Below, in pieces: positions 6,500 through 51,680 of a DNA stretch of 64,000 nucleotides; the first letter of the stretch is position 1, and each line of letters opens with the position of its first letter. The notes beneath the pieces were generated by a model, which worked only from the letters and a program-made list of their open reading frames with translations, did not search any database and was not told where the DNA came from. This DNA comes from Candidatus Cryosericum terrychapinii (lineage in GTDB: Bacteria > Caldisericota > Caldisericia > Cryosericales > Cryosericaceae). The position numbers and the translations under genes were made by a program. The stretch is taken from the NCBI RefSeq assembly GCF_003570925.1, contig NZ_QXIS01000033.1, positions 28,612-92,611 of the forward strand, in the 5' to 3' direction.

Positions 6500-6680
6500 T
6501 TGCGAAGAAGTACCATGCTCTAGAGTGAGTCCCAGAGGGGCTCGAGACTACGTGTGGAGATAGGGGGATGAACCACGCTGCCGAACACCCTCGACGACGT
6601 CTGAGAGTGCGGTCGTGGACGCCTTTGCAGATGTGTTGTTGAAGGTTCAGTCGCTCAGTGGTCGCCAGAGGCGGACACGC
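6500..6680 (+). repeat. Core-repeat copy (left family B, right family II)
   Basis: The core at 6552-6567 is a variant of GTGGTGGAGATAGGGG. The left flank (GAAGTACCATGCTC, then GAGTGAGTCCCAGAG) and the right flank (GCTGCCGAACACCC, then GGTTCAGTC) align with the copy at 24840-25010 over about 170 bp. Neither copy holds an intact gene. Confidence 0.6.
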
Positions 6681-6988
6681 GCGTTGCTCGTGAACACCGA
6701 GGTTATGAGGTCGTCGCAGGTATCCCCGTTGTCTCTGGAATCGGCTTGGACGGCACGGCAGAGGTGATATTCCTCGCGCGAGGAAGACAGTGGTGGAAGT
6801 ACGGAAAGTCTGAATTATGGCAAGACAGAACCCACAGGGTTAGCAGCCACAGATGAACTGCCTGCCCTGCGGGCCAACGCGCAATAATCTATGTGAAGTT
6901 CCAAGGCTAGGATAGGCGCAAATTCGTGCTTAGACGTGTACTGTCACTCGGTCTCCGCAAGAAACCATTTTCTCCGTGGGGAGGGTAC
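6681..6988. other. Intergenic, nothing recognised
   Basis: About 300 bp between the repeat copy and pspA. I see no gene, no tRNA and no strong terminator. Confidence 0.4.
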
Positions 6989-7666
6989 TTACAGCCCTAG
7001 TTCGACCTTCATTTTGTTCAATTCCTCATCTACCGAGGCGGTGCCCTTCGTGGCGTACTTTTCTTCCAATGCTTTTGCTGCGTCAATCGGCTTCATATTC
7101 AGGTCAGCCATAGCGTTTGCCTCGTCCAGCATCTTGTTCGCCTTGTCCTCCATGCGGCCAAAAGCGTTCATTGCACCTTCGGTTCTTCCTATGGCCGTGG
7201 TGGCCTCATTCAGCGTCTCTTGGGTTTTTGCCACGGTAACCTTGGCCTTGATCATCTCGCGGCGGGATTTCAGGGCGTCAATATCAGACGCGAGTTTATC
7301 GTGCATCTGACGCATCTTTACTGCGTTCTCATGGGCTGCTGCATAGGCCGTCATAAGACCCGCGCCGACGTTTTCAAGCTCCTGTTTCTTGGCGATGAAC
7401 ACACGGGCATCGCCTTCGTTTCCAGCCACCAGGGCCTTCTTGGCAAAGTCCGCATACTTAGCAGCCTCTGCCTGATTCTCATCTACCAGACGCTTCGTAC
7501 GCGTCTCTTCGGCCATAACCCCGGCAGTACTACGCTTGACCTCCGCCAGATCCTCCATCATATCGCGCAAGGACTGGTCGATCATCTTGGACGGATCTTC
7601 CATCTTGTCTATCAGTGCGTTGATGTTTGCCTTGATAATGTCGTTAAACCTGTCCAGAATAGCCAT
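6989..7666 (-). CDS. pspA: PspA/IM30 family membrane-stress protein
   Basis: 225 residues, the usual size for the PspA/Vipp1 family. The protein begins MAILDRFNDIIKANINALID, the amphipathic membrane-binding helix typical of the family. A long, almost uninterrupted alpha-helical coiled coil follows (MIDQSLRDMMEDLAEVKRS, then MRQMHDKLASDIDALKSRR). These proteins polymerise on the inner face of the cytoplasmic membrane and protect it under stress. The gene starts 19 bp after the stop of the TPM-domain gene upstream, so both are probably one transcript from the promoter at 8876-8904. No PspF-type regulator is present in the window. Confidence 0.9.
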   Translation of the reverse strand: MAILDRFNDIIKANINALIDKMEDPSKMIDQSLRDMMEDLAEVKRSTAGVMAEETRTKRLVDENQAEAAKYADFAKKALVAGNEGDARVFIAKKQELENVGAGLMTAYAAAHENAVKMRQMHDKLASDIDALKSRREMIKAKVTVAKTQETLNEATTAIGRTEGAMNAFGRMEDKANKMLDEANAMADLNMKPIDAAKALEEKYATKGTASVDEELNKMKVELGL

Positions 7667-7685
7667 TGTCTTGCCTCCTTAGATT

Positions 7686-8837
7686 TTAATGATCCGGTTT
7701 CCCTTGGTTGTCTTCGTACTTCTTCGTGAGTTCTTCCGCCTCCGTATCTCCGAATTTTTCCAGCGGTGTCTTGAGCATTTCCTCCGTCTGCTTCGCCTCC
7801 AGATTCTTCTGGTTTATTGCACGTCTCCACCAAGCGAACATTATGATCATCAGAACAACGACGCCCAGAACGACGAACACAATAATCCAGGGCGATCTTG
7901 TTACCTCCATGATGCGATCCGCCGCATCGCTGAAGGCTTTGCTGAAGAAGGCCCCTTCCGACAAATTGCTGTCGTAGTAGTACCGATCGACATAATCAAG
8001 CAGAATATTCGCGGCCTCGTTGTCAATAACGGTTTTGGCCTGTGTACCACAGACATACCTGTCCATGTAGCTGTTGTCATACTCGAAGAATACCAGAAGC
8101 AAATGAGCTTCATCGGTAAATAACTTGTCATACAGACTGTTTGCAGCTTTATCGAGGTCACTGGCCGTGGGAGAATGCGAACCATTGATCGTATCCGTAA
8201 TATACAGGTAGGGCTGCACGCCGGTCTTCTGATAGAAGTGCTTCAGGCCCGCGAGAAGCTGTGTCTGATTGTCAATCCATCCCAGCTGGTCGGTGTAATA
8301 GCCGGTTTCATTCACAGAACCCCGTGGCAGCGCCTTGCGTGCCACGGTAGATTTCATAATCTCCGTACTTCCTCCGGAGCTATTTGAAACAGAGCCTGAA
8401 TGGGATGCAGTAATCGCAGCGATAGCAATCCCGATGACAATCAGAACGACAATCAGCGTAAGGCAGCCGCATCCCCTTGAACGACCGCCTCCATAGCTGC
8501 GTCCGCCACCAAAAGGAACCCCGCTTGGCCTGCTGTTGCCGAGAGAAGGACCTGCAGGACCGCCGCCGAAGAAGCCGCCGAAGCCGCCGCCGAAGGAGTC
8601 GCCACTGCGCCTGCTGCCGAAGCCGCCACCGAAGGGTCCGCCGAAGCCGCCACCGCTTCTGCCGCCGGAGGAGTCACCGCTGCGTCTGCTGCCGAAAGAA
8701 GGGCCTCCAGAGCTACCGCCGAAGGAGCCGCTGCTGCGTCCGCCACTTGTGGAGCCGCTGCTGCGTCCGCCACTGCTCCTGCTCCCACCACCGGACCCGC
8801 CGCTACTTCTGCCACCGGAGCCGCCGCCTCTACCCAT
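7686..8837 (-). CDS. TPM-domain membrane protein with Gly/Ser-rich N-terminus
   Basis: 383 residues. The first ~115 are low-complexity Gly/Ser/Arg/Phe repeats (GGRSSGGS, FGSRRSGDS). Next come a transmembrane segment (LTLIVVLIVIGIAIAAI), a TPM domain (~155-310: WIDNQTQLLAGLKHFY, PYLYITDT, DEAHLLLVFFEYDN), a second membrane segment (IIVFVVLGVVVLMIIMF) and a charged tail. TPM domains occur in envelope-maintenance proteins and a subset are phosphatases; no activity can be assigned here. The Gly/Ser region is probably a flexible cytoplasmic arm. Pairing with pspA suggests membrane homeostasis. The ATG at 8837 follows GGAGGTAGG. Confidence 0.8.
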   Translation of the reverse strand: MGRGGGSGGRSSGGSGGGSRSSGGRSSGSTSGGRSSGSFGGSSGGPSFGSRRSGDSSGGRSGGGFGGPFGGGFGSRRSGDSFGGGFGGFFGGGPAGPSLGNSRPSGVPFGGGRSYGGGRSRGCGCLTLIVVLIVIGIAIAAITASHSGSVSNSSGGSTEIMKSTVARKALPRGSVNETGYYTDQLGWIDNQTQLLAGLKHFYQKTGVQPYLYITDTINGSHSPTASDLDKAANSLYDKLFTDEAHLLLVFFEYDNSYMDRYVCGTQAKTVIDNEAANILLDYVDRYYYDSNLSEGAFFSKAFSDAADRIMEVTRSPWIIVFVVLGVVVLMIIMFAWWRRAINQKNLEAKQTEEMLKTPLEKFGDTEAEELTKKYEDNQGKPDH

Positions 8838-8875
8838 TGCTTCCTACCTCCGTTCAGGAATAGATACCTAATTGC

Positions 8876-8904
8876 AATCTATCATAAGCGTAGAATCATG
8901 TCAA
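8876..8904 (-). promoter_or_regulatory. Sigma-70-type promoter for the TPM-pspA pair
   Basis: On the minus strand TTGACA (8899-8904) is followed after 17 bp by TAGATT (8876-8881), about 40 bp before the TPM gene start. Confidence 0.55.
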
Positions 8905-8996
8905 TTCATACTGCTATTGGCATGGGTGGTTGAGTGCACGTGACGCAGTCTTCTCCACGCATCTATGCTGCAAGCAACAAGGGAACACCGGACCTG

Positions 8997-9090
8997 CGGT
9001 GGAGATGGGGGCGAACAGGCCCTCCTGCGAACCATCGACACTACTACTGCTCAAGCTGATTCTGGAGGCGGTCCACTCCACTTGGGAGAA
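8997..9090 (+). repeat. Core-repeat copy (right family I)
   Basis: A degenerate core (GCGGTGGAGATGGGGG, 8997-9012) is followed by a family I right flank (GCGAACAGGC, CCTGCGAACCATC, CTCAAGCTGATTCTGGAGG) shared with 26184, 30740 and 51518. The left flank matches no other copy. The rest of 8838-9220 has no gene. Confidence 0.55.
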
Positions 9091-9130
9091 TGGGCGGACT
9101 TCTGTCGACAACGCGCTCACCGCATAGAGA

Positions 9131-9161
9131 GCCGCCTTCTCTATGTAGCAGAGAAGGCGGC
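9131..9161 (-). terminator. Hairpin downstream of the ABC transporter gene
   Basis: A perfect 11-bp stem (GCCGCCTTCTC / GAGAAGGCGGC) with a 9-nt loop lies 60 bp after the ABC gene stop. There is no T-run, so termination is inferred from the stem and position only. Confidence 0.45.
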
Positions 9162-9220
9162 CTGCGTGCAGGGAGGCAATGGTCGGTTCACAGCAGGCAC
9201 CTGCGATGAAGATGTCATGC

Positions 9221-11614
9221 TCACTCCGTGCGCAATGCCTCCACTGGATCCATTTTCGACGCCATGAGTGCTGGAATGTGACCGCCGAGAACGGTAAGAA
9301 CCGTGCTGATGGCTATCAGGAGTACAGCCTGCAGTATTTGCAGGTTCGCAACGCCGCTGAGGCCGGTCAGGTGAAGCAGAATGGCATTGATGGGTATGGT
9401 GAGAAGCCAGGCAATTGCGATCCCGAGGGCACCGGAGCTTACACCGAGAATGAACGTTTCGGCATCGAAAACACGGGTGATGTCTTTCTTTCTTGCGCCT
9501 AGCGAACGCAGAACGCCGATCTCCTTGGTGCGCTCGAGTACAGAAGTGTAGGTGATAATAGAAATCATGATCAGACTGACGATAAGCGAGATCGCAGCAA
9601 ATGCAATCAGGACACTTGTGATGGCGTCCATGATGCCACCTGTCAGTTTGGTCACCGTACCTGCCAGATCGGTATAGACCACTTGGTCTTTGATAGCTTT
9701 GCCATTGTTATACGCGTCGAGGTAGGAGATTACGGCCGTCTTGTCTGCGAAATTCCTTGGATACACCATGACCATGAAGGGAGTAGCGTCGCCGCCGAGG
9801 TAGGACAGGAAGGAGGCCTTCGTTTCCTTGTCCATGGGTTGCATGGTGATGACGTTGTTGCTGCTCGCCTTTTGGGCCTTGACGATGGCAGAACTTGCAT
9901 CACTGTCGACGACCATTTGCGACAGCTCGTCGCTGTACGCGATACCAGATCCGAGGATCCCGACTTTGACGTCCTGCTTCTGACGGACGATGCCGACGAT
10001 CTTCACTGTGATGCCTTTATCGGAAGCGTACATTGCGTGGTAATCGTTGTTGGGGAGATATGAACCGAATTTCGTCTGGACGTAGTAGTCGTCGTTGCAT
10101 ATGATCTTGAACTCCGTGCCGACGATGTCCGTGAACTTAATGCTGGTCAGTCCCTCAGTCTTGAATCCAAGATCTTTCAGAGCATTGAGGTCAATGGTGT
10201 TCTTGGAATCCACGACAAGTACGAGGTCGGTTGCGCTTTGTGGATATACGCCCGCAAGCAAGTCATAGTTCTTGGAAAGATAGGATCCGTCGCTTTCTTT
10301 CAGTTCCTTGGGATAGGAAGAAAGCCCGATGCTGCTCATACTTGTCACATTTGCCATGCTTGTCATGGTTGACGCGGCTGTGGCCCCTTGGCCACTGCTC
10401 ATGGACGCCAGGACGCTGTTGAGCGATACAGGTGTGACCGTGCCATTGACATCCCTCAGCATGTTCATGCCGACGATACGCGTGTATCCGACGTTGCTGC
10501 AGATGGTCGGGTCAATCTTGTTCACGTAGTTCATGTACGCGTCAGTGAAGACGTTCGTGTGGACAATCGTTGTTTTCGCCGGATCGGAGAGATAGACCTC
10601 GTCAGAATTGGCATCCGCTGTTGTTGTGCCCAGCAGCTTCTCTTTCATGAGGTTCTGCATGGTTGCCACATTTGCGGCATCGATCTCCGCGCTTGACTGT
10701 GTCATGATGATCGGGAACTCGGCCATGGTGTTGCCTTGAAAATGGTCTATCTGTGTCTTGAATCCAGTTGAAAGGCTGAGGATCACGGCGATGCCTATGA
10801 TGCCGATGCTGGATGCAATGACGGTCAACGCTGTTCTTCCCTTCTTCGTCCTCAGGTTGTTGAAGGAGAGCTTCAGCGCCGTCAAGAAGCTCATGCTGGT
10901 CTTCTTGAGCGAAAAACTGTCCGGTTTCGGCCTCTCTTCATGAGGGTGGGTGTCGGAGATGATCTTGCCGTCCTGGAAACGAATGACCCTGAGGGCATAT
11001 TTCTCCGCGATCTCAGGATTGTGGGTGACCACGATGACCAGACGGTTCTTTGCCAGCTCTTTGATGAGGTCCATGATCTGCATGCTCGTGACCGTGTCCA
11101 GAGCGCCTGTCGGCTCGTCGCAAAGCAGGATTTCTGGATTGTTGACGAGTGCTCTCGCGATGGCGACACGCTGCATCTGCCCGCCGGATAGCTGGTTTGG
11201 CCTCTTGTTCAGATGGTCCGTGAGGTCGACCTGGTCCAGGACCTGCAGTGCCCTTTTTTGCCGTTCCTCCGCCGGAACACCGCTGAGCGTCATGCCGAGT
11301 TCGACGTTGGCGACGATGCTCAGGTGCGAGATCAGATTGTAGCTTTGGAACACGAAGCCTATGGCACTGTTGCGATAAGCGTCCCAGTCGTCTTCTTTGA
11401 AATCGGATGTCTTCTTGCCCTTGATGATCAGTTCGCCCGAGTCATAGCGGTCAAGGCCGCCGATGATATTGAGGAAGGTTGTCTTGCCGGAGCCGCTCTT
11501 GCCGAGAATCGCTACAAAATCTCTCTCGCGGAACGCAACGCTCATGTCATCGAGAGCCCTTGTTTCGGTGTCACCCACGTGGTAGGTCTTCCTGATGTTT
11601 CTCAGTTCAAGCAT
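9221..11614 (-). CDS. MacB-like ABC transporter, fused ATPase and FtsX-type permease
   Basis: 797 residues. The N-terminal ATPase has Walker [10 protein letters not shown], signature [15 protein letters not shown] and Walker [14 protein letters not shown] MacB/FtsX-type permease follows: one membrane segment near residue 265, a large extracytoplasmic region, then three segments at the C-terminus including the typical [22 protein letters not shown] stretch split over the first loop. The fold moves lipids, peptides or drugs by coupling ATP use to an external domain (mechanotransmission); the substrate is unknown. The start overlaps the end of the tetR-type gene by 8 bp. The pair is therefore one operon, and induction probably follows binding of a ligand by the regulator. 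Confidence 0.9.
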
Positions 11615-12236
11615 AGCTAGTTTGCTCCTTGTTCTTCATGAAGCCGCGCTTCAGCAGCTCAAGCTTCTGGCGGTATTTCTGCATCGCTTTCTCGCAGTCT
11701 GATATGTTCAGGAATACTTCCTCCGTTGCGTCCCGACAGATAGTCAGGAGGATATCAAGCATGTTTGTGAAATCATGCTCGTCGCGCACGTCGAGCATGT
11801 TGAAATCGATGAGCGGTTTCAGCTCTTCCAACACATTCTTCGCGCTGGTATCCCTTGGAATCTTGAAATAGAAGCTACTGTCTACCTTGATGTCAGCAAA
11901 CAGGTTCCTGCAGAAGCTGTTTGCTTCTTCCATGACGAAGCGGATCATGGAGTCGAGAATACCGACGAACGCCGCGAATATGTCGCCATCGCCGGCACGA
12001 AGGCTCGCTTTCACTTGTTCGAGCATTAGCCTCTGATAGTCCAGAAGAATGAACCCGAGCATATCGTCTTTGTCAGCGAAGTACTGATAGAAGCTTCCTC
12101 TCGGAATTCCCGCGGCTTGTACGATCTTATTGATGGACACCTTGTCAAACGGCGCTCTCGAGAACTCATCCTTGATAGCACGGATGATCTTCTCCCTTTT
12201 CTCTTCTGGCAGATTCAGAAACGTAGATGTTGGCAA
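11607..12236 (-). CDS. TetR/AcrR-family transcriptional regulator
   Basis: About 209 residues. The N-terminal helix-turn-helix reads INKIVQAAGIPRGSFYQYFADKDD, split in the usual TetR way. The C-terminal ligand domain is helical with no recognised ligand. I place the start at the TTG at 12236 (reads PTSTFLNLPEEKREKI), which has GGGGAGAGG six bases upstream. The longer frame from an ATG at 12281 would start inside the operator and is unlikely. The gene overlaps the ABC exporter gene and probably represses both from the operators at 12252-12281. Confidence 0.85.
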   Translation of the reverse strand: MPTSTFLNLPEEKREKIIRAIKDEFSRAPFDKVSINKIVQAAGIPRGSFYQYFADKDDMLGFILLDYQRLMLEQVKASLRAGDGDIFAAFVGILDSMIRFVMEEANSFCRNLFADIKVDSSFYFKIPRDTSAKNVLEELKPLIDFNMLDVRDEHDFTNMLDILLTICRDATEEVFLNISDCEKAMQKYRQKLELLKRGFMKNKEQTSYA

Positions 12237-12251
12237 AACACACCTCTCCCC

Positions 12252-12281
12252 ATGACAACATGTCATATGACAAGCTGTCAT
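12252..12281. promoter_or_regulatory. Two abutting palindromic operators (TetR sites)
   Basis: ATGACAACATGTCAT (12252-12266) is directly followed by ATGACAAGCTGTCAT (12267-12281). Both are inverted repeats ATGACA-N3-TGTCAT. The second overlaps the -10 box of the tetR promoter by two bases (12280-12281), so occupancy would block transcription: a classical autoregulatory arrangement. Confidence 0.8.
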
Positions 12282-12307
12282 TATATGAGACGGGTCGTGG
12301 CTGTCAA
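12280..12307 (-). promoter_or_regulatory. Consensus sigma-70 promoter of the tetR-ABC operon
   Basis: On the minus strand TTGACA (12302-12307) and TATAAT (12280-12285) are both perfect, with a 16-bp spacer. The transcript would start within the operators and lead to the TTG at 12236. Confidence 0.8.
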
Positions 12308-12369
12308 TTGAGGACTTGTATGGAACTTTGTGAACGACAAGACACCTCTAGCTCCCGAATGACGCAACA

Positions 12370-12560
12370 GGGCGGGGGAGGGGGAGTCGATGGTGGTCGG
12401 ACGTGTTGTTGGAGACGCAGTATTGATACACGTGATGGAGATAGGGGCCATTGACAGCATTGGCGTCCAGCAGGATGCCTCCTACGGATTGTTGCTCAGC
12501 CTGCTGCCGCACCTTCCTTCAGATGCTGAACGACGGCCTTCGAAGCAGAGGAATGCGCAA
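12370..12560 (+). repeat. Core-repeat copy (left family C, right family IV)
   Basis: Core variant GTGATGGAGATAGGGG at 12432-12447. The left flank contains GACGCAGTATTGATAC, shared with 26165-26183 and 42318-42338. The right flank (CCATTGACAGCATTGG) is not seen elsewhere in the window. The remainder of 12308-12708 holds no recognisable gene. Confidence 0.55.
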
Positions 12561-12708
12561 CGACGGAGAAGAGCAAGAGCGTGAGAAACTGAGTATCGAG
12601 TACCAGATGCACGCGGTAGGTGGTTCGTCAGCCACTGCAAGTAGCTGAGGGTGGGGTCCGAAAGTTGATGCCCCTCGAAATGTTATCTTGCACTTGAGGA
12701 GAAGCCAT

Positions 12709-13017
12709 ATGCAACTTCTACCGCAAGGAATCGCAGCAACCCTTCCGCCGCTCTATGCGACAGAAGAAACTCCTGTCGAACAGAGAGTTCTCTATGTCAA
12801 GTTCTTCGACCCCCTACACCCAATGGACCTAGTATGCCTGCGAATATGACCCGAAGGAGCGTCTGTTCTTTGGGTACGTCGTCGGCCAGGAGAAGTAATG
12901 GGGGTACTTCAGCCTTGAGGAGCTTGAGTCATTGAAGATGTCCGACGGTCTCACTCCCAGGATTGACCGGGACCTGGACTTTCGTCCAGCTCCATTCTCC
13001 AGCCTCGTTATCTGAAT
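12709..13017 (+). pseudogene. DUF2958 gene, inactivated
   Basis: The start is intact: GAGGAG precedes an ATG reading MQLLPQGIAATLPPLYATEE and then RVLYVKFFDP, the family N-terminus. A frameshift near 12830 and two in-frame stops interrupt the gene; TAG and TAA sit where tryptophan is expected (before YACEYDPKERLFFGYVVG and before GYFSLEELESL). The end reads TPRIDRDLDFRPAP. DUF2958 genes are small cargo genes of plasmids and integrative elements, function unknown. It is dead here unless stops are read through. Confidence 0.75.
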
Positions 13018-13052
13018 CATCTTCTCGAAGTGTCGGTCTCTGACGCCCCCCC

Positions 13053-13200
13053 GTGGACTTGGTGGGTCGAGGCGGAGGGCAGGCCGTGGGGGCTCGGCTG
13101 GGTGCTCACCGTCACGGACTGTGCCACCGGCCGGACCGAGGCGGGGCCGTATGCACGAACGCAGAAGTGTACGCGCTTGCTGCACTGGGGTATTGTCTTC
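13053..13200 (+). pseudogene. Integrase-core transposase fragment
   Basis: VDLVGRGGGQAVG in one frame continues as GWVLTVTDCATGRTEA in another. This matches the first part of the DDE core in the copy at 35985-36439 (AVDLVTHEG, CALDITDVATGWTETRAV). Frameshifted and truncated, so no activity. Confidence 0.55.
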
Positions 13201-13287
13201 GCCGGTACCCAGGTCACGCCCCCTCTGATTGCATGTATTATCATCTGGCCAAAATGTCATTTTGAAAACGCGCTCGAATCTCTATTG

Positions 13288-13321
13288 ATATCACAAAATG
13301 TTCACGATATGCTTGTGATAT
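13288..13321. promoter_or_regulatory. Inverted repeat upstream of the serine dehydratase gene
   Basis: ATATCACAA (13288-13296) and TTGTGATAT (13313-13321) are perfect inverted arms separated by 16 bp. They lie about 95 bp before the start codon in a locally AT-rich region. This could be an operator or an attenuator stem; no clear -35/-10 pair can be chosen. Confidence 0.4.
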
Positions 13322-13415
13322 GTCACAGATATATTGATTACTTGAGAAGGTTCTACGCGTATGGTTATACCGTATTGACATTACGAGATCTTGGCAAAAA
13401 GGAGATTCCGTACTT

Positions 13416-15005
13416 ATGGTTGCATTGTATCCAGACTTCTACAACGACGTATTTGGCCCAATTATGCAACCTGGCTCCAGTTCACATATGGCTGCGCCGT
13501 GCAGAATGGGTTACATGTGTAACTCCCTTTTGGGTGAAGATGTCAAAGAGATCCTTGTCAAGTTGGATACCGAGGGCTCGTTTGCTGGAACATTCGGTCT
13601 GATGAATGAAGACCTTGGTATGTTGGCAGGTGCACTGGGGGATCTCCCCGATGATGAGAGGCTTTTCAGCACCAAATCCTATTGCAGAAACAATGGTATC
13701 AAGTATGAATTTGATTTCTGCGCTATGAAGGAGAGCCCCCACATCAATGCTGTCAAATTCATCCTGACGGGAGTAAGCGGGAAAACGTCAACCTTGGTCG
13801 CTAATTCGACCGGCGGCGGCATGGTGGAAACCGTTCTCGTAAACGGCTATCCCTATACTGGCAAGGGCGACACCTACGTTGTCCTTGTTTTTGACAAGGA
13901 CAGAAAATTGTCCTTCAAAGAGCTGGCGACACAGCTTGCAGGCAGACTCGACATATTGGAGGAAGGCGCCTCCGATACAGATGATAAGGGCATCCTCTAC
14001 TGGTATAGAACGCCGGATGACCCCTCCAAGGATTTCCTGAAGGAAGTTGTGGGAGACGTCGATTTTGCCGTTATGAAGCCGGTTCTTCCGGTGATTACCC
14101 GGAGGGACAAGAAGGAACAGCTTTTTGACACCGTCACCGATTGGCGCCGTCTCGCCGAGGAGCAAGGCAAGGGCCTTTATGAAGTAGCCCTCGACTACCA
14201 GATGGCCGCCTCAGGTTGGACCAGAGAACAGGTCATCGATTACATGAAGAACGTGCGTGCTAAGATGCACCGCCAGACCCACGCCATCTACGATGAAGAC
14301 GTCAAGCCGTTGGAAACCCCGTATTCCGGATACCATTACAAGCAGTGGTCCGAGTATATCGCGACCGGCAAACGTTTTTCCGGTAATGCGATCAACAAGG
14401 CCATCTATTACGCATTGGCTGCCACAACGACCATCCCAGGCGTACATATCGTTCCCGGCCCCATGGGCACTGGCGGGGGATTTGTGTATTCCGCCCTGTG
14501 TGCGGTCAAAGAGGAGTTCGGTTATTCTGATGAAGATCTGCTGAAAGGCCTGTTCATAGCGGCGGGAATAGGCGCAATCTGCTATACCCGCACCGGTCCC
14601 ACCGGCGAGGTCATCGGCTGCACCGGCGAATGCGGCGTCTGCTGCGCTATGGCCGCAGCCGGCGTAGCTGAAATGGCCGGTTCCACCCCTGAGCAGGTTG
14701 AAGCCGCCGCCTCACTGGCTTTGCAGACGACTGTCGGCTGGCCCTGTGACCCTATCCCCGGCGGAAAAATGCAGCCCTGCTTAAGTAGAGTCATCACCGT
14801 GGTCACCATGGCAATTACCTTCGCGGAATTCGCAAGGTCCGGCAGAGACCCTGTCCTGCCCTTCCACGAGGTTGTGGACGTAGCCGACAAGATTGGCCGA
14901 GGCCTTTCCGGAGACCTGCTCTGTACATCTCGCGGCGGTCATTGTGCCGCTCCTACCGCGCAACAATGTATCCAGGCCATCAATGAGTGGCATCGGCAAC
15001 AATAG
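13416..15005 (+). CDS. L-serine dehydratase, iron-sulfur type, single chain
   Basis: 529 residues, the size of fused beta-alpha serine dehydratases. The N-terminal beta-chain region carries QPGSSSHMAAPCRMGYM, a version of the family motif GPSSSHTxGPxR. The alpha-chain region carries GCTGECGVCCAMAAAG and GWPCDPIPGGKMQPCLSR, with cysteines suited to a [4Fe-4S] cluster. The enzyme would deaminate L-serine to pyruvate and ammonia in the cytosol. AAGGAGA lies upstream of the ATG. A truncated sodium/amino-acid symporter begins 28 bp downstream, so the original operon probably coupled uptake with breakdown. The family also includes desulfidase-like members, so the substrate is likely but not proven. 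Confidence 0.85.
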   Translation: MVALYPDFYNDVFGPIMQPGSSSHMAAPCRMGYMCNSLLGEDVKEILVKLDTEGSFAGTFGLMNEDLGMLAGALGDLPDDERLFSTKSYCRNNGIKYEFDFCAMKESPHINAVKFILTGVSGKTSTLVANSTGGGMVETVLVNGYPYTGKGDTYVVLVFDKDRKLSFKELATQLAGRLDILEEGASDTDDKGILYWYRTPDDPSKDFLKEVVGDVDFAVMKPVLPVITRRDKKEQLFDTVTDWRRLAEEQGKGLYEVALDYQMAASGWTREQVIDYMKNVRAKMHRQTHAIYDEDVKPLETPYSGYHYKQWSEYIATGKRFSGNAINKAIYYALAATTTIPGVHIVPGPMGTGGGFVYSALCAVKEEFGYSDEDLLKGLFIAAGIGAICYTRTGPTGEVIGCTGECGVCCAMAAAGVAEMAGSTPEQVEAAASLALQTTVGWPCDPIPGGKMQPCLSRVITVVTMAITFAEFARSGRDPVLPFHEVVDVADKIGRGLSGDLLCTSRGGHCAAPTAQQCIQAINEWHRQQ

Positions 15006-15033
15006 AACGCGATAATAAGAGGAGGTAGTCGAG

Positions 15034-15210
15034 ATGGAAGAGATTGTAGGAACCAAGACACACGCCAATTGGCGTAGTAATTTGGGGGCGGTTCTGGCCA
15101 CGGCGGGCTTCTCTATCGGTTTTGGTAACATATGGCGTTTTCCGTATCTGACCGGCACCAATGGCGGCGGAGCATTCAACATTCGTTGCTGCATATTCCC
15201 GCTCGAATGA
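15034..15210 (+). pseudogene. Sodium:neurotransmitter-type symporter, 5' fragment
   Basis: AGAGGAGG precedes an ATG reading [18 protein letters not shown] and then [19 protein letters not shown]. This is the unmistakable first membrane helix of the SNF/NSS family (Na+-coupled amino-acid import). Family members have ~450-500 residues; here homology stops near 15180 and the frame ends at 15210. The remaining helices are absent, so it cannot transport. Confidence 0.8.
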
Positions 15211-40940: not shown

Positions 40941-40955
40941 CCTGGAGGGTTTACC

Positions 40956-43057: not shown

Positions 43058-43230
43058 GGAGATAGAATTGGTCGGAGCTCGCATGCGAATTCTGAGCTGA
43101 CGAGTCTCGACAACAATTCGGCGACGGTGTGGCCACAAATCGCAAAGAGTCATCGGCGAGACCATAGATTCGGAGGTCGGGCGCACTTTTCGGCAATAGA
43201 CCCGGGAGATGCAAGACCGGTCCGAGATGC

Positions 43231-44379
43231 CTAGATCGTATCCGTTCCTGCATCTCTGATCCATACTGCCATGACGGGATCCACGAGGCGCCACTCCTTC
43301 TGCTCACGTTCAATGAGGTCCAGTACCTCGAGAGTCTTCATGGCCTTCGCCATGCCTGATGCAGACAGACCATATTGCTGCAGGTATTCGTGTGCCAAGG
43401 GCTGCGCCGTAGGATCAATGGCAAGACTGTTCAGCGCCCGTCGCTGGACGGGGGTAAGTCCCATCCACGTGGCTTGGAGGAATGATGTCTCGGAATGGAT
43501 CAGTTTATTCCATGCTGCATCGATGATTTCGTCAGTGCAAGCGGTCTCTGTCATGTTCCAGATAATGCCTGCGAGCTCTTGGACGTAGATGGGGTATCCG
43601 GCAGCACGGTCATAGATGGCAGAAGCCATAGCGGGACTGCACGTCTTGCCAGTATTGGAGAACTTCTGAACAATGTAGGGGACGAAGTCGGCGCTGCCGA
43701 TCCTATCGAGTGTCAGAAAGGTGGAGCTGCCGTAGAAGGGTCGATTCTTGCCAAACATGTCCATGAGCAGTTGCCGTCGGCTGCCTACATAGACGAAGGA
43801 GACGTCTTTCTGCATCGAAATGTGCTCACGCAGCGTTCCCTCAATCCTTTTTGACTCTGGGAGCGTACTTATTTCCTGAAACTCGTCGAACACACAGCAG
43901 GCCTTCCTGTGGTTCTTCTGAACGTAGCTGAGCAGACTTGCCATGATATCATCAAGCCCTGCGGCAGGCGATGTCCCGGGCGTCATGGCGGCAGAAACAC
44001 TCATCTCATTCTGACGTACAGTGAAGGTCACCGTGAAGCTCCCGAACAGGTTCGTAAGGCGTTTCTTGAAACTGCTCGGAGATGCCCCACGTCCGATGCC
44101 AGCGATGACCGCTCTTGCCAGCTTCATGACGAAGTCCTGCTCTGAGAGAACAGAGAAGAAGTCGGCATAGACCGTCAGAAAGTCCTGTTCGTGAAGGAGC
44201 ACAATAGCGCGGCGGGTGAGAGACGTCTTTCCGTAGCGGCGGGGAGAACTCAGAACGACGCTCTGTCCGCTCAGGACAAGATTTTCCAGCTGTGCTAGCT
44301 CCTTTGTCCTATCACAGAAATCGGCACCATCCGCAACGGTGGTGATGAACGGATTGCTCGTCCTTGAGCTTCTCTGCAT
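43231..44379 (-). CDS. AAA-family ATPase (archaeal-type ATPase, PF01637-like)
   Basis: About 382 residues. Walker A is SSPRRYGKTSLTRRA, Walker B ACCVFDEFQEI, sensor-like FVYVGSRRQLLMDMF; a winged-helix end follows (TPVQRRALNSLA, LSASGMAKAMKTLEVLDLIE). This is the plan of the ATPase_2/PF01637 group, which often occurs with mobile or defence genes and whose role is largely unknown. The ATG at 44379 (QRSSRTSNPF) has GGAGG nine bases upstream; the ATG at 44394 lies inside the iteron array. The gene is bracketed by related iterons on both sides. Confidence 0.85.
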   Translation of the reverse strand: MQRSSRTSNPFITTVADGADFCDRTKELAQLENLVLSGQSVVLSSPRRYGKTSLTRRAIVLLHEQDFLTVYADFFSVLSEQDFVMKLARAVIAGIGRGASPSSFKKRLTNLFGSFTVTFTVRQNEMSVSAAMTPGTSPAAGLDDIMASLLSYVQKNHRKACCVFDEFQEISTLPESKRIEGTLREHISMQKDVSFVYVGSRRQLLMDMFGKNRPFYGSSTFLTLDRIGSADFVPYIVQKFSNTGKTCSPAMASAIYDRAAGYPIYVQELAGIIWNMTETACTDEIIDAAWNKLIHSETSFLQATWMGLTPVQRRALNSLAIDPTAQPLAHEYLQQYGLSASGMAKAMKTLEVLDLIEREQKEWRLVDPVMAVWIRDAGTDTI

Positions 44380-44392
44380 GGCCAATTCCTCC

Positions 44393-44453
44393 ATTACGCG
44401 AATAGCGTTACGCCGATAGTGTTACACTAACAGCGTTACACCAATAGTGTAAT
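44393..44453. repeat. 14-bp iterons, promoter-proximal array (four units)
   Basis: Units GTTACRCCRATAGTG-like repeat every 14 bp from ATTACGC to GTGTAAT, related to 43011-43057. Their place right before the ATPase start makes them likely operator sites for its product. From here to 44682 I see a palindrome CTGCATGCAG (44652-44661) and nothing else. Confidence 0.75.
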
Positions 44454-44682
44454 GACAGAGATGAGTCGCGCAAGTCTATGTGAGGACCCCGCAACAGGCA
44501 AATTGCACGGATCCAATTGGTGTGCCCGCGTGTACGACGCCAATCATCGGCGTCCTTGAGCGTGAGAATTGATTTGCAGTCGCACACATGGTTCAGACGG
44601 TGACGTGATGGATTCCACAATGTCGGCGGGAAGTGATACACTAAAATGTAGCTGCATGCAGTATTAGGAGGGGGATGGTCTC

Positions 44683-45279
44683 ATGAGTATGCCGTACTGG
44701 GAATACTTCTTGGCAATCGAGCAGGATCTGGAGAAATGCACTAGGTACGTCCAATTCGATGTGAGGAACTACAAGGCCTATTCACTGGAATTCGCCAGAA
44801 TCATCGTGGCTAGCGGAGCCGAATGTGATACCGTCATGAAATCGCTGTGCAACTCCATTGATGATTCCGAAGATCCAGACAGTATTGGCTGGTATTTCCC
44901 CATAGTGAGTTCAGCGTACCCCAGGTTCACTGAGTATGAGATCAACATACCGCGATATGGATTGTCCTTCATGCCTTGGAAGGGTTGGTCTCCGACCGAT
45001 AGCCCTGATTGGTGGAAGAGTGCCTACAACAAGATCAAGCACGAAAGAGACCAGCACTTTGAGAGTGCGAACCTGGAGAATGCCATTCTGGCCACGGCTG
45101 CACTCTTGTCCACGTTGCTGTACTACTACGTGCAACTACGGTCGAAGGAGGAGGAGTCAAAGTGGACGACCTTCATCGACATTGACTATCTGCAATCGCC
45201 GAGGCTGCTCTCTCCCAAGCACTACGACAGGTTGTGGCAGGGGGCGGATATTCTGTGGGATTACGATATTCTGCGGTAA
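44683..45279 (+). CDS. Hypothetical protein, HEPN-like
   Basis: 198 residues, predicted cytosolic. The C-terminal half reads WWKSAYNKIKHERDQHFESA, then LENAILATAALLSTLLYYY. An N-x-x-K-H-x-R helix followed by a hydrophobic helix is common in HEPN-like proteins of defence loci. The strict R-x4-6-H order is not present, so nuclease activity is uncertain. AGGAGGGGG precedes the ATG. The gene is immediately upstream of the large frameshifted protein and may belong with it. Not assigned to a named family. Confidence 0.6.
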   Translation: MSMPYWEYFLAIEQDLEKCTRYVQFDVRNYKAYSLEFARIIVASGAECDTVMKSLCNSIDDSEDPDSIGWYFPIVSSAYPRFTEYEINIPRYGLSFMPWKGWSPTDSPDWWKSAYNKIKHERDQHFESANLENAILATAALLSTLLYYYVQLRSKEEESKWTTFIDIDYLQSPRLLSPKHYDRLWQGADILWDYDILR

Positions 45280-45473
45280 CCAGAGGACAGCCAATCGCGG
45301 AAGTCACTCCCATCGAGGAGTTCTGCGGTACGCGCTGTGGAGCGGATTCAGCACCTGTTCTCGTATCAGCGTTCACATGGCAACACTGACACGGTAGTGC
45401 TGGCGAGTCGATCGAGCTCGAGAGAAGTGCCGCTGGTGTACCAACGATGTCTGTGGTGGAGGCATGGAGAAGA

Positions 45474-48400
45474 ATGAGCAGAATCATTAGTGAACTGGAA
45501 CTGGATCAATGGGTCAGGAATCATCCGACGCCTGCAGAGAGCGCGGTTCCGGAGCTTCTGTTGCGTCTCGTCAGACAGTCCTGCCCGGGTGCCATCGAGA
45601 GACGCATCCCGATTGGCGACAGCATCGATCAACCTGGGCTCGATGGCATCCTTGTCACAGAGAGTGGTTTTGGCGCTTTCGTACCGAGAGGAAGATCCTG
45701 CTGGGAGATTGGGACCGGAGCGGATACAACAGCGAAGGCGACAGAGGACTACTCCAAACGAACCACCGAGAAGAACACGTCGGTTCCGGAGGACATAAGG
45801 GTGGAATCGACTTTTGTCTTTGTCTCGCCTCTTTCGGCACAGCGAGGTTGGCGAAGGGAATCCCAGTCAGAATGGCTGGCACAGCGAAGAGAACGGCACG
45901 AGTGGGCTGATGTCCGAATCCTTGACGGAACCGGGATTGTTGATTGGCTGGAAGATTTCCCGGAAGTCGAGTTGTGGCTCGCAGGACAAATGGGGATTCA
46001 TGTTGACCAGATCGAGCTCCCAAGTCAACGTTGGGAGAGGTTGTCTTCTGTTGGCGGCCACCGGCTCGTACCAGAACTGTATCTTGCAGGTCGTGAAGCC
46101 GTCTCGATCGCGCTGACAAAGGCGTTTGCCCATGAGCAAAAACAGTTGGAGATTGACACCCATTTCCCCGGTGAAGCAGTGGATTTCGTGTCAGCTTTCA
46201 TCGCGTCGAAGGAAGCAGGTGGAGAAGAACCGGCGCTTGATCAGTGCCTGATTGTCTCCGGAAGAGAAGCTTTTGACGAGATTGCGGGACTTGAGACAAC
46301 CAGGGTGTTGGTTCTCGACTTCCCGTTCGGTGACGACAGCACGATGACGTCTGCCATCGCACAAGCAGAATCGAAAGGAAATGTCGTTGTGTATGAAGGA
46401 ATACCGGGAGGGGAAGAAGACTGGCAAAGGGTGCTTCTGGCGAAGCCACGCAGGCATGCGATTGAAGAGAATCTTGTGAAGGCTGGTTACTCAGAAGAGC
46501 GAGCTCGGTTACTGGCACAGCAGAGTGATCAGAATCTGAGCGCTCTGCTCAGGCTGATTCAGGGCGTTGCAGCTACACCCGAATGGTCTCGCAGCGGAGA
46601 GGCTGCTGACCTCGCCTTGGCTCAGCTGGCAGGTGGATGGCATGAGGGTTTGCCGGCTGACAAGGCGGCAGTAGAAGAACTGTCAGGCAGGGACTACGCG
46701 ACCTGGGCGGCGAGACTCAGTGGATCATCGGTCAGCGAAGAAGCCCGATCGTCCGGAAGGGAAAGGTGTGGCAATTCGCCGCACGCTATGAGGGCTGGCG
46801 GTGTCTGGGCCGGCTGATTCACGATGAGGATCTTGGCAGGTTTCAGAAAGTCGCCATCGATGTCCTGAGTGAGCGGGATCCGCAATTCGACCTTCCGCCA
46901 GACAAGCGATTTGCAGCATCGATGTATGGCAAGACGCTCACGCATTCTTCCGAACTAAGGAAAGGGTTATCGGAGACGTTGGCGCTCCTCGGGAGCTACC
47001 CGAACGTGCTTACGTCATGCTCAGCGGGAAGCGCCGAGGGGACCACCACTCTCGTCGTCAGGGACGTTCTGTCAGGGGCAGGTTGGGACCGATGGGCAAG
47101 CGATGATGATGTTCTGCCGCTCCTCTCCGAAGCTGCGCCATTGGAGTTTCTAGATGTGGTGGACAAGGCTCTTCGCGTGTCGCCATGCCCTTTCGATTCT
47201 GTCTTTGCTCAAGAGGGGAAGGACCTGCTGACCGGAAGGAACTACATGACCGGTCTCCTCTGGGCGCTTGAAGGACTCGCATGGAATCGGGACTACTTCT
47301 CAAGAGTAGTGAGCATCCTGGGTGAACTGGCGCAACGCGATCCATCAGGAAACTCAGCGAACCGTGCAGCCAATTCCTTGGTGAGCATACTTCTGCCGTG
47401 GCTGCCCCAAACGACTGCTGCACTCGACCAGAAGAGAACAGCAGTTGAGGCCTTGTGCACGGCCCAACCGGGAGTTGCCTGGAGTCTTCTTCTCGCATTG
47501 CTTCCATCAACGCGCCAGGCCTCCTGGCCCTCTCACCGCCCTGTTTGGCAGACAGGGTGGATCCCTGACGACTGGCGCAGGGGCGTGACAACACGGGAGT
47601 ACTGGGATGCAGTGACTACATACGCTGGACTCGCAGTGCGCATGGCGAAAGGTGACCTGCACCGGCTTGCCGAATTGCTGGATCATGTGGACAGTCTGCC
47701 GCCCCAGACCTCAGACGATGTACTTGAGTATGTCATCTCGGATGCGGTCAGGTTGTTGCCTGAAGAGACCAGAGTGGACCTCTGGAACCGACTGATGAAG
47801 TTGACCGGCGAGAGCATCAGAGCACAAAGATCCCAACAACCAACGGACCAGAAGGTGCTGGAGAAGGTCAAAATGGCTGCAGAGAAGATCGGTCCGGTGT
47901 CTCCTTTCTACCGATATCAGCGCCTCTTCACTGACCGAGCACATGAGCTTTTCGATGGTCAAGGAAGCTACGAAGAGCAACGAAAACGCGTTGATCAAGA
48001 GCAACAGAAAGCTGTCAACGAAGTATACGGAGCCGACGGCTATGACGGTCTGCTCAGATTCGTCCGCGCTGCCCAGTCGCCGTCCCGGGTCGGATCTGCT
48101 CTGGGAGCTTGTGCTGATAGCATGATTGATGCACAAATCCTCCCCTCGTTGTTGGACTCCAAGGATTCTGCGATGGAACAGTTCCTCGGCAGTCTCATAT
48201 GGCGTAGGCACTTTGTGCTTGGCTGGGAATGGGCCGATGCTCTCGATGTCCGCTCTTGGACCCCCGATCAAAAGGCTCAATTCCTGGCGTATCTTCCCTT
48301 TGCGCCAGAAGCCTGGGAACGTGTCTCAAAGTGGTTAGGAGAAGACGAGTCCAGATACTGGATGAAGACTTCCGCGGAACCACGTGAAAGTGACACTGGG

Positions 48401-49276
48401 CTTGGAGAAGCCGCTGAAAACCTGCTTCGGGTTGGCCGCCCATTGGCTGCCCTGAGATGCCTTGAACACCTAGCCGTCGACAAGAAGGCGGTTGGCGGCC
48501 AGCTGGTTGTTCGCACGCTGAATGCAGCTGCGAGCTCCTCCGAGAAGCCCCACCAAGACGATGGATACGCTATCGTCCAGCTGATTGAGGTGCTGCAGAA
48601 CGATCTCACCGTGGAACGGGCAGATGTTGCCAGAATTGAATGGCTGTTTCTGCCTCTCCTTGAAGGCGGGCAGCACAGAGTGCTTGACCGCGAATTGGCG
48701 AAGAATCCCGGCTTGTTCTGCGAAGTAGTACAGATGGCATTCCGGTCTGGGAAGGAGGCGGATGCGCCTCGCAACCTGAATCAGCAGCAGCAGCACATGG
48801 CAGAGAATGGTTTTCGACTGCTCACTGAATGGCGAATTCCACCTGGACTGCACGAGGATGGTACATTTCATGGGGAAGAGTTGCTTTCTTGGTGGAACGA
48901 TGTGAAGGCGAGGTGCGCGGAATCCGGTCGTCTAGAGGTCGCCTTGGACATCGTCGGTCAAGTCCTTGTTCATGTTCCTCCGGATCCTGACGGCTTCTGG
49001 ATCGACAAGTCTGTTGCGCAAGCGCTTGACCAGAATGACGAGAGCGCTGAGTGCCTTCGTTCCGGGTTTGGCAGCGCAGTGATCAACTCACGAGGCGTCT
49101 ATTGGGGGAACCCTTCAGGCGAGGATGAAAGAGCCCTGGCAGCCAAGTACCGTCAGCAGGCCAGTGATCTGAATATGGAGGGACTCCCTCGCTTGGCAGC
49201 GACCTTGCAGGGAATTGCGAAGAGGTACGACCAGGAAGCGGGGGAAGTCGTGACACGCCATGAGTCGGAAGAGTAG
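45474..49276 (+). pseudogene. ~1270-residue defence-type protein with nuclease-like N-terminus, one frameshift
   Basis: Two long frames encode one protein. Part one (45474-~46740) starts SRIISELELDQWVRNHPTP. It has a restriction-endonuclease-like region (GLDGILVTESGFGAFVPRG, WEIGTGADTTAKATEDYSKR) and a segment resembling an NTPase but lacking a P-loop (LYLAGREAVSIAL, LEIDTHFPGEAVDFVSAF). Part two (~46740-49276) continues in another frame (PIVRKGKVWQFAARYEGW, then long helical sequence to the end). The change is between SGSSVSEE and SPIVRKGK, near 46730-46750. No slippery heptamer is obvious, so it is either a mutation or a sequencing error. Codon use is even across both halves. The family is known to me only as large uncharacterised proteins in defence islands. 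Confidence 0.7.
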
Positions 49277-49395
49277 TTGACATGAGGAACCTCCGTTGTC
49301 AGACTACCAAGAGAAATGACCGTGGTGTCGGTCTTCCGGCAGCCAATTGTGTAGCCGGATGAATGATCCGTAGAGGAGGGGGTGTCGAAATTAAC

Positions 49396-50241
49396 ATGAA
49401 CTCTGTCGGTTCAGCGGACACATGCGTTGCCGATTTTCGAAAGCGCTGGAGCATGACCCAGGTTCCAGCAGAGGCAATTGAGGACTTTCGAAACAGAGCA
49501 TTCGGCAGCATCAAGGAAGCCCTCGGAGGCTTGATACTAGATGATTCGTCGATATCGGACGCGTTCCTCCACGCGTTGGGGGAACCGGTGTCATCGGATG
49601 ATTGGGGGTACATCAACAAGCCGACGGAGACGCCACTCTGGCACGCCCTAGAGCGAAGAACTACGCTTCCCGAATTCGTTCTTGGACTTGAGGTCCTGTT
49701 TCACATCGGATTGGATGGTCGCGCGCAACAGGAATTGGCGAGGCTGTTGCGCAAGGACATTGTGGCTTCGGGAGTATCAGTCTCATGTGCCGAGAGCAAT
49801 GGCTACGTCACTTTCTACCCGGAAGGGGCACGGTTGCTTGACGAGCAGGTCATCAACGCTGATCTCACCTGGCTTGGTGCCTACCCGGAGGCTCTGAAGG
49901 CTTTTTCCGAGGCCCTCAGTGTGTACGGCTCGTCCAGCCAGCACAGACACATGCTCGATTGCCTTAGAGTGTGTATTGAAGAGCTAGCTAGGAAGTTGTT
50001 GGGGAATGATCTGTCCCTGGAGAAGAACACCGTCGGCTTGTTGGCGCTTCTTGGGCCCGTGCTAAGCAAAGAGACGCGGAACATGACTCGCGTGCTGCTC
50101 GACTACTACACCAGATACCAGAACGAACACGTCAAGCACCACGATGACTGGACGCCAGTCGAGGTTGCATTCATCCTGTATCTCACTGCGACGTTCGTCT
50201 ACCTGCTGATTGCGGCGCGTCGGGAAGATGGCCATGACTAG
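49396..50241 (+). CDS. Hypothetical HEPN-like protein
   Basis: 281 residues from the ATG at 49396 (NSVGSADTCVADFRKRW), with a GAGGAGGGGG box ~16 bases upstream; the exact start is uncertain. The C-terminal part holds RVLLDYYTRYQNEHVKHHDD, in which RYQNEH fits the HEPN ribonuclease motif R-x4-6-H, followed by a hydrophobic helix (VAFILYLTATFVYLLIAA). HEPN proteins cleave RNA in abortive-infection and toxin systems. It follows the large protein by ~120 bp in the same direction, so joint function is plausible. Confidence 0.65.
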   Translation: MNSVGSADTCVADFRKRWSMTQVPAEAIEDFRNRAFGSIKEALGGLILDDSSISDAFLHALGEPVSSDDWGYINKPTETPLWHALERRTTLPEFVLGLEVLFHIGLDGRAQQELARLLRKDIVASGVSVSCAESNGYVTFYPEGARLLDEQVINADLTWLGAYPEALKAFSEALSVYGSSSQHRHMLDCLRVCIEELARKLLGNDLSLEKNTVGLLALLGPVLSKETRNMTRVLLDYYTRYQNEHVKHHDDWTPVEVAFILYLTATFVYLLIAARREDGHD

Positions 50242-50432
50242 CAATGCGACCGCATCGTGACCGGATCAGAGCGGACGGTCGGTGCTCAAGAAGCATGTGG
50301 GACTGCAGCTGATTGCGTTGCTCTCACGGGACGCTGCTGTGACATCAGACTAGTACTGTTCTGGAAGACCTCGCACGACAATGGCAGGCTACGGGGTTTA
50401 AGCGTTGCGTATCGCCATGCTTGAGCGGAAGC

Positions 50433-51197
50433 TCAATGGGTCCAGCCCGAAATCATCTTGTAGAGGGTGTCAAGGAACCGATTGAGACCGGGTTCGATTA
50501 GGACAGCCAGGCGCATAGAGGAACACAGGAGAACTATTGCGGTCACCGTCGCTACGAGTCCAAGCAGCCTCTTGTTCTTGCGGAGAGGACTCCTTCTCAC
50601 TGCTGGCACGGCAAAGCCAAAGAGTACGACACCGAAAATGGTTGCGGCGATCGGATAGACGAGGAAGTATCTCCATATGTCCCTGTAGTCCACGAAGAAG
50701 TCGAGAAGCAGCAACAGGACAGCGAGTGTCAGTATGCCCTTGAACAGCATAACCTTCATACTGTCGCTCTGCGAGGGGAACCGGGTCCACAACTCGACGC
50801 ACAGGATCAGCACGAGTGTCGTAAACAGAAACGTGACAACATACGCGAACCACCGGATTCCCAGTTGCCCCGTGAAGAAGGAGATGGCAGTGAAGACACC
50901 GATGACCTCGATGATCTTCTGGTTAGTCTCTAGGAGCTCCGAAAGAGTGGCAGTCGCGACGGATTTCGGTGCGGCATGATCTGCAACGGTGGTGCCCTGA
51001 GAGAGGACTGTCTCCGGCTCGCATTTGGTCGGCGCGGTTAACGGAAGGCTCTCCGGGTCGGGAGCAACTATAGCCTTCTTGGGATTCCGCGTTATCAACG
51101 TCGACAAGAGCACCAGAGAGCCAACAGCGGTGACAATACAGCCCAGGCAGGACAACGGCCTCTTCTTGGTCAACTTGCGTCTCCTTGATCGCGACAC
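50433..51197 (-). CDS. Multi-pass membrane protein of unknown function
   Basis: 254 residues. A basic N-terminus (SRSRRRKLTKKRP) and one membrane segment (CLGCIVTAVGSLVLLSTLI) are followed by a ~60-residue soluble linker. Four or five hydrophobic segments then close the protein (AISFFTGQLGIRWFAYVV, FLFTTLVLILCVEL, GILTLAVLLLLLDFFV, YPIAATIFGVVLFGFAVPAV, LLGLVATVTAIVLLCSS). No family recognised. Membrane effectors of this size are frequent in defence loci, but there is no direct link here. Confidence 0.65.
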   Translation of the reverse strand: MSRSRRRKLTKKRPLSCLGCIVTAVGSLVLLSTLITRNPKKAIVAPDPESLPLTAPTKCEPETVLSQGTTVADHAAPKSVATATLSELLETNQKIIEVIGVFTAISFFTGQLGIRWFAYVVTFLFTTLVLILCVELWTRFPSQSDSMKVMLFKGILTLAVLLLLLDFFVDYRDIWRYFLVYPIAATIFGVVLFGFAVPAVRRSPLRKNKRLLGLVATVTAIVLLCSSMRLAVLIEPGLNRFLDTLYKMISGWTH

Positions 51198-51429
51198 TGG
51201 CCCGCGCTCTGCTCTTATCGGGATTGCCTTCGTGCGTGATCTTCATTAGTATGACGATGAGGTCGCTTTCCACAACTACTGGCGCTGATAGTACTCGTAG
51301 TGCTCACGCCTGAGTGTGTCGGACGGAGTGGAAGTGTCTGAAACCGCCCTGACAGACTTGACCTGGGTCGACGTGGTGAGTAGTGGATCTACGATTCTCG
51401 AATGTTCAGGATTGATGCCCCTATTGAAG

Positions 51430-51680
51430 CACAAAGTGGTCGGGTGAGGGCGAGAGCTGGGGAGAAATCGTGAAAGAGTCTTGCTCCAGAGTTAGTCCTA
51501 GAGCGGCTTTGGAGTACGTGGTGGAGATAGGGGCGAACAGGCAGTCCTGCGATCCATCGGCATTGCTAATGTTGAAGCTGATGTTGGAGGTGGTCCTTGG
51601 TATCTCGTCTGGCGTGACAGAGCGTCGAAGCAGAGATGTGCCAAGTCTTCTGTCCCAGACAATCCAGAACCGAGAACCGT
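51430..51680 (+). repeat. Core-repeat copy (left family B, right family I)
   Basis: Exact core at 51518-51533. The left 90 bp align with 24790-24889 (GAAGCACAAAGTGGTC, GCTCCAGAGTTAGTCC). The right flank (CGAACAGGCAGTCCTGCG) aligns with 30756-30850. It therefore joins the left of one copy with the right of another. No gene lies in 51198-51720. Confidence 0.7.

Follow-up and report, generated by a model that had tools for sequence, protein, structure and literature searches.

In the staphylococcal cassette chromosome (SCC) and in composite SCC elements, repeats of the attachment site (att) delimit tandem and recombinase-free units. The closest known system to the locus described here is that of the ssrA islands of Dehalococcoides, which lie at the gene for transfer-messenger RNA (tmRNA); in these islands the gene of the serine recombinase DsiB always overlaps att and receives its stop codon from the neighbouring sequence, and a possible function of this overlap has been discussed (McMurdie et al. 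2011, PMC3146451). With regard to the islands that tyrosine integrases form at tRNA genes, the Islander study counted four arrays of three or more islands, and this count required an integrase in each island (PMC4383910). According to a survey of 2014-15, serine recombinases were not known to target tRNA genes. Here, we have analyzed a 64,000-nt stretch of DNA (hereafter the window; positions 28,612 to 92,611 of contig NZ_QXIS01000033.1, here C27) from Candidatus Cryosericum terrychapinii, in which a short core sequence recurs between sets of genes. On the basis of the current results, the region is very probably an array of integrative elements that accreted at the 3' end of a tRNA-Ala(GGC) gene. 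The overlap of a recombinase gene with att is not new here, since it is known for DsiB at ssrA. What is new is the tRNA target, the exchangeable short end modules and the mostly recombinase-free cassettes, and such cases may be listed in later resources, for instance TIGER. In the papers searched, we found no account of mobile elements in Cryosericum, which are permafrost bacteria.

The 16-bp core occurs 11 times in the window, always on the plus strand and with 0-3 mismatches per copy, compared with a mean of 0.56 and a maximum of 3 in shuffled sequence. All 11 had been reported in an original prediction made from the sequence alone, two of them one base off (at 6552 and 8997 instead of 6551 and 8996). 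Of 15 core matches in the whole assembly, 13 are located on C27 (166 kb), all on the plus strand, from C27:27858 to C27:107008 (79 kb). The series therefore extends past the window, on the left to C27:27858 and on the right to a tRNA gene at C27:106994. The final core (C27:106993-107008) is the 3' end of this gene, a tRNA-Ala(GGC) on the minus strand (C27:106994-107069), which lies at the end of the series, 14.4 kb outside the window, and was identified by ARAGORN, by Rfam (64.8 bits) and by direct reading of the sequence. The core, TGGTGGAGATAGGGG, corresponds to the final 15 bases of this tRNA in antisense, comprising the CCA, the acceptor strand and the adjoining part of the T-stem. The original prediction was made without this fact; the window itself contains no tRNA and no Rfam family, both of which were looked for. 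The thirteen cores bound twelve units of 0.15-27 kb (median ∼4.9 kb), which stand in one orientation on one side of a single tRNA and occupy ∼79 kb. Most units carry 1-4 genes on either strand and no recombinase, and the gene contents of different units are unrelated. A tmRNA was also considered as the source of the core and was rejected: RF00023 gave sub-threshold matches only, this tRNA among them, and ARAGORN called it a tRNA-Ala.

The flanks of the core were clustered by anchored alignment at 54 core sites in 15 species. The analysis covered this genome (G000) and fourteen further ones of the genus. The left flanks, or arms, fell into families A (14 sites, ∼106 bp), C (11 sites, ∼54 bp), B (5 sites, ∼98 bp), D (4 sites, ∼127 bp) and E (4 sites, ∼180 bp). 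On the right, the core was followed by arm I (19 sites, ∼61 bp), the tRNA itself (13 sites), arm II (6 sites, ∼95 bp), arms III, IV and V (3 sites each) or arm VI (2 sites). In a repeat search, A, B, C and I each emerged as a distinct repeat family with its right or left edge at the core, and flank clustering gave the same families plus II. The left families previously proposed for the window, A (17579, 30740, 39205), B (6551, 24890, 51518) and C (12432, 26184, 42339), were recovered by clustering and mostly also by the repeat search, and right families I (8996, 26184, 30740, 51518) and II (6551, 24890) by clustering. The flanks proposed as right family III (42339, 42492) were weakly alike and did not cluster. 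The combinations A-I, B-I, C-I, B-II and C-III are all present. The original prediction had also suggested examining whether left and right flanks pair at random. Across the core, pairing was indistinguishable from random (33 sites; mutual information 0.506 versus 0.579 in shuffled data; p=0.76); between consecutive cores, the start and end arms were associated (19 units; 1.23 versus 0.90 shuffled; p=0.017), with I..A recurring five times and IV..C, III2..B and II..C twice each. Thus, the unit is the stretch from core to core, and both patterns are as predicted for stacked independent elements. Because the flanks do not co-vary across the core, duplication of a single unit is excluded, as had been claimed. 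The proposal of crossover at the core stood in part: a junction can be observed to change exactly at the core, but instead of free crossover among homologous flanks we find tandem accretion.

Several further observations concern the arms and the core. Right arm I was considered as a conserved coding tail of the recombinase and was rejected, since its frame is interrupted by one-base indels at several sites. Core followed by arm I is also located at a conserved spot in three species where no tRNA was called (G000:C25:31661, L098; G001:C22:91116, L104; G006:C150:497, L107), which is an inherited, non-tRNA occurrence of the core. A displaced tRNA fragment was observed at G013:C3:16489 (L111), where an A arm and the core are followed by ∼40 further bases that resemble the 3' part of tRNA-Ala, and no tRNA gene was called.

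Directly left of tRNA-Ala(GGC) lies an intact large serine recombinase of 514 amino acids (C27:105514-107058; PF00239), whose best PDB match is the TP901-1 integrase and which holds the sole intact Resolvase domain on C27. HTH_36 and DnaB-like helicase genes are located upstream of it. Its frame crosses the core as VVEIG and stops inside the antisense tRNA (VVEIGGLEPPTSCMPCRRSPS; GGLEPPTSCMPCRRSPS), so that the gene overlaps att. The recombinase frame ends inside antisense tRNA-Ala in G000, G006 and G008, the latter two having their own intact recombinases, which are ∼32-37% identical to the A-type one and stand at this tRNA in an equivalent position and reading frame. The C-terminus is encoded by the sequence past the core, which is antisense tRNA in this genome and arm VI in G001. 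The original prediction had taken family A for the 3' coding end of a large serine recombinase and the core for an attachment site overlapping that gene, and both points are borne out. Its statement that all left flanks read VVEIG mostly reflects a property of the core itself; in the window, a coding frame for a recombinase is confined to family A, and B, C and D, which lack one, find no support as recombinase ends. No match to PF00589, the tyrosine integrase domain, was detected on C27, the only one in the genome being on contig C11.

In many respects the locus resembles the Dehalococcoides ssrA islands: the 3' end of an RNA gene recurs as a direct repeat that delimits tandem units (13 cores), the gene is intact at one end, the gene of a large serine recombinase at that end overlaps att and draws its stop codon from outside the island (G000, G006 and G008), and many islands lack an integration module. 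Both DsiB, which was compared by its description, and the present recombinase have only distant likeness to CcrB. On the other hand, the target here is tRNA-Ala(GGC), and apparently also tRNA-Ala(CGC), rather than tmRNA, the host is Ca. Cryosericum, several arm families share one core and the units are mostly small. Whereas the Dehalococcoides module has six genes including the small serine recombinase DsiA, the contig yielded no second, small recombinase (the search did not extend to ParB and Mom), and the genes preceding the recombinase are of the HTH_36 and DnaB-like types. As in SCC, a large serine recombinase is present whose best NCBIfam match is CcrB, but the score is 119 bits against a cut-off of 900, the target is a tRNA instead of the 3' end of rlmH, and att lies at the 3' end of the recombinase gene. 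The tRNA islands of tyrosine integrases share the tRNA 3' fragment as direct repeat, the whole tRNA and the occurrence of tandem arrays (Islander, PMC4383910); they differ in their integrase, which has no counterpart on C27, and, compared with the arrays counted there, 12 units lie at one tRNA here. Finally, small oriented gene cassettes separated by a short conserved recombination site are also found in integrons, from which this array is distinguished by the lack of a tyrosine recombinase, by a site that is the 3' end of a tRNA with variable arms and by cassette genes on either strand.

The same tRNA-Ala(GGC) locus could be followed in other members of the genus, among which Candidatus Cryosericum hinesii and C. 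septentrionale are the closest relatives with a name. Twelve further species have kept it together with the same downstream gene, which, judged from its sequence, we take to be dtd (D-aminoacyl-tRNA deacylase). Different units adjoin this tRNA in different species: left of the tRNA core we found arm A in G000, G001, G005 and G012, B in G010, C in G013 (and a diverged form in G009), D in G007 and E in G006, and unique sequence elsewhere. By synteny left of the array, the insert between the conserved chromosome and the tRNA ranges from ∼1.0 kb (G002) through ∼5.8 kb (G011), ∼9 kb (G010) and ∼16 kb (G013) to ∼85 kb in the present genome. The comparison of occupied and empty sites proposed in the original prediction thus gave a range from ∼1.0 to ∼85 kb at the same tRNA, although the emptiest site, in G002, belongs to a distant relative and is near-empty rather than fully empty. 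Individual cassettes could also be compared. For the PspA cassette (6567-8995), likeness to G009 runs into the core, after which the right side switches from arm I to arm IV. Sequence similar to the flavin mononucleotide (FMN) reductase cassette (24906-26183) is found within or beside the tRNA-Ala array of five other species, where its neighbours differ. The aldo/keto-reductase cassette (26200..30739) carries arm A in G000 and G001, but in G008 it is joined to arm C at a point ∼110-125 bp ahead of the core, which shows that the arms themselves can be exchanged, by some further process.

Such an array is most likely built as follows. A large serine recombinase would join attP, the attachment site of the element at the 3' end of the recombinase's own gene, to the 3' end of the tRNA. 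The tRNA would stay whole, and a copy of the core (the last ∼15 tRNA bases) would be left at the far end, each core being the trace of one integration. Joining an attP at the end of a gene to the tRNA implies that the recombinase C-terminus is set by the sequence past the core. Through repeated rounds, units would be stacked in one orientation on the chromosome side of the tRNA; the intact recombinase adjoining the tRNA is consistent with this. Most units would have lost, or never had, a recombinase, and would have kept only end modules of ∼50-180 bp (the arms) with the core. At each core, the left flank would close one island and the right flank would open the following one. Presumably the recombinase described above catalyses integration, with the crossover falling within the core, and the recombinase-free units may move in trans.

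It is necessary to weigh this mechanism against other explanations and against several observations that fit it less well. Tandem duplication of a single ancestral recombinase unit, followed by divergence, would fit the recurrence of some arms in the array and the core that reads VVEIG in the recombinase frame; however, the unrelated contents of the units, the lack of a recombinase coding frame in B, C and D and the flanks that do not co-vary across the core contradict such an origin, which we regard as highly improbable. The core and arms could instead constitute a dispersed repeat family whose mosaic arose by homologous recombination or gene conversion between copies. In favor of this, arms of ∼50-180 bp are common to many sites, some outside the array, and one arm switch is situated ∼124 bp from the core. 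Nevertheless, what all classes have in common amounts to just ∼15 bp, the core coincides exactly with the 3' end of the tRNA, the cores on C27 all point in one direction and end at the tRNA with the recombinase at the tRNA end, and insert size at the same tRNA differs between species, all of which make this explanation very unlikely. An integron-like platform, in which one resident recombinase captures and shuffles recombinase-free cassettes and the short arms are portable att sites, would be an extension of accretion at the tRNA rather than its opposite, and we consider it possible but somewhat doubtful. Most units have 1-4 genes and no recombinase beside one intact recombinase on the contig, the FMN-reductase cassette lies within or beside the tRNA-Ala array of six species and has differing neighbours there, and arms occur on different cassettes, one of which carries A in two species but C in another. 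However, decay of ordinary islands also gives recombinase-free units, and is seen here in the truncated recombinases at 17579, 30740 and 39205; in addition, shared cassettes differ by 13-20% in DNA, about the same as the tRNA-dtd region, and old vertical descent fits as well as movement.

As for the accretion of elements at tRNA-Ala(GGC), some results weigh against it. Core and arm I occur at chromosomal sites without a called tRNA (C25:31661 and C32:19494), and the array is therefore not the sole context of the core. The association within units comes from 19 units of related species with some common ancestry, and arm swaps away from the core, as in the aldo/keto-reductase cassette, require a further process. 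The assembly is a metagenome-assembled genome, 81% complete, in which single joins may be misassembled, although units shared with other genomes argue against a general artefact. Finally, no circular, excised or viral form was found in IMG/VR, either by the recombinase protein or by the pattern of core plus arm I, and tblastn against phages gave only relatives of <30% identity; activity is thus a prediction.

The arms appear to serve two isoacceptor genes, tRNA-Ala(GGC) and tRNA-Ala(CGC). The latter ends in TGGTGGAGCCGAGGGG, and in several species the sequences on its left resemble, by eye, arm A, B or C; a core-like site of the CGC type is located inside the GGC array (Table 1), and a tRNA-like fragment is present at 42214 of the window. 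More generally, a serine-recombinase open reading frame (ORF) runs into a convergent tRNA gene at 12 of the 17 loci checked in the class, namely tRNA-Ala at four (three GGC and one other), tRNA-Glu at three, tRNA-Arg at two (one decayed), tRNA-Phe at two and tRNA-Asn at one. An att repeat was established for tRNA-Ala(GGC), the evidence elsewhere being the ORF overlap alone. A truncated serine recombinase on contig C1 also ends in a tRNA-Met. If confirmed, these loci with five amino-acid specificities, together with the 12-unit array, would represent serine integrases that are directed to tRNA genes by nature and whose attachment sites can be read, and would provide a system for asking how attachment-site arms are gained and exchanged in permafrost bacteria. 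In three species, the gene of another serine recombinase terminates within tRNA-Glu(CTC) (G000:C32:44675-46225, L142; G011:C54, L141; G008:C1, L163; tail VAPRRIELLFGD); a second copy of the tRNA-Glu 3' end, as the other island boundary, was not found on C32 with ≤2 mismatches in two 20-kb stretches.

Table 1. Cores, units and recombinase remnants in the window (window coordinates; arms are given as left, right)
Feature	Position	Strand	Description
Decayed serine-recombinase fragment	5739..6194	-	Parts of PF00239 and PF07508, one TAG
Core (first in window)	6551..6566	+	3 mismatches; arms B, II
Unit	6567..8995		PspA/IM30 gene and a second gene; cassette recurs in G009 and G010
Core	8996..9011	+	2 mismatches; left unclassified, right arm I; end of PspA cassette
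Unit	9012..12431		ABC/FtsX transporter, TetR regulator
Core	12432..12447	+	Arms C, V
Unit	12448..17578		Serine dehydratase-like gene, nuclease with Cu_amine_oxidN1 domain, truncated recombinase
Truncated large serine recombinase	16685..17764	+	∼87-88% identical to intact copy from residue 196; without catalytic domain; reads through core
Core	17579..17594	+	Arms A (truncated recombinase), VI-like
Unit	17595..24889		Beta-propeller (sortilin/BNR-like) proteins; internal core-like site at 21706
Core-like site, TGGTGGAGCCGAGAGG	21706..21721	+	tRNA-Ala(CGC) type, inside GGC array
Core	24890..24905	+	Arms B, II
Unit	24906..26183		Single gene, NADPH-dependent FMN reductase
Core	26184..26199	+	Arms C, I
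Unit	26200..30739		Flavin reductase, aldo/keto reductase and DUF1801 genes
A arm	30635..30740	+	Last ∼120 bp of recombinase gene (core included), 80% identical to intact copy
Core	30740..30755	+	Arms A, I
Unit	30756..39204		ABC/FtsX genes, RsgA-type GTPase
A arm	39082..39205	+	Last ∼140 bp of recombinase gene (core included), 94% identical to intact copy
Core	39205..39220	+	Arms A, IV
Unit	39221..42338		ApbE, FMN reductase and FMN-binding genes
Core	42339..42354	+	Arms C, III
Mini-unit	42355..42491		∼137 bp, gene-free, between two cores (III..D); core-to-core step 153 bp (42339 to 42492)
Core	42492..42507	+	Arms D, III-like
Unit	42508..51517		ATPase gene and several genes without Pfam match
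Core	51518..51533	+	Arms B, I; start of 27-kb tRNA-proximal unit ending at tRNA-Ala(GGC)
tRNA-proximal unit, window part	51534..64000		Type I restriction-modification genes and others; unit runs on to recombinase C27:105514-107058

The features of the window are listed in Table 1. The gene-free III..D unit of ∼137 bp is also present at G007:C70:3549-3702 (L123) and G004:C159:1242-1395 (L116), sometimes with a tRNA-Ala(CGC)-type core on one side; lying between cores or core-like sites, it is a minimal non-coding cassette. The core-like site at 21706 may divide the unit in which it is located in two. Proteins with repeats of ∼43-50 residues (sortilin/BNR-like or InlB-like) are encoded at 1-1736, 19912-21372 and 22018-24162, recur in different units and in two cases contain a Cu_amine_oxidN1 domain; they are likely to be surface proteins in which the repeats have expanded. 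On the minus strand, the nuclease ORF (15458-17497) overlaps the truncated recombinase (16661-17764, plus strand). Since the Pfam domains of the nuclease do not reach into the recombinase, the nuclease gene probably has its true start near 16600.

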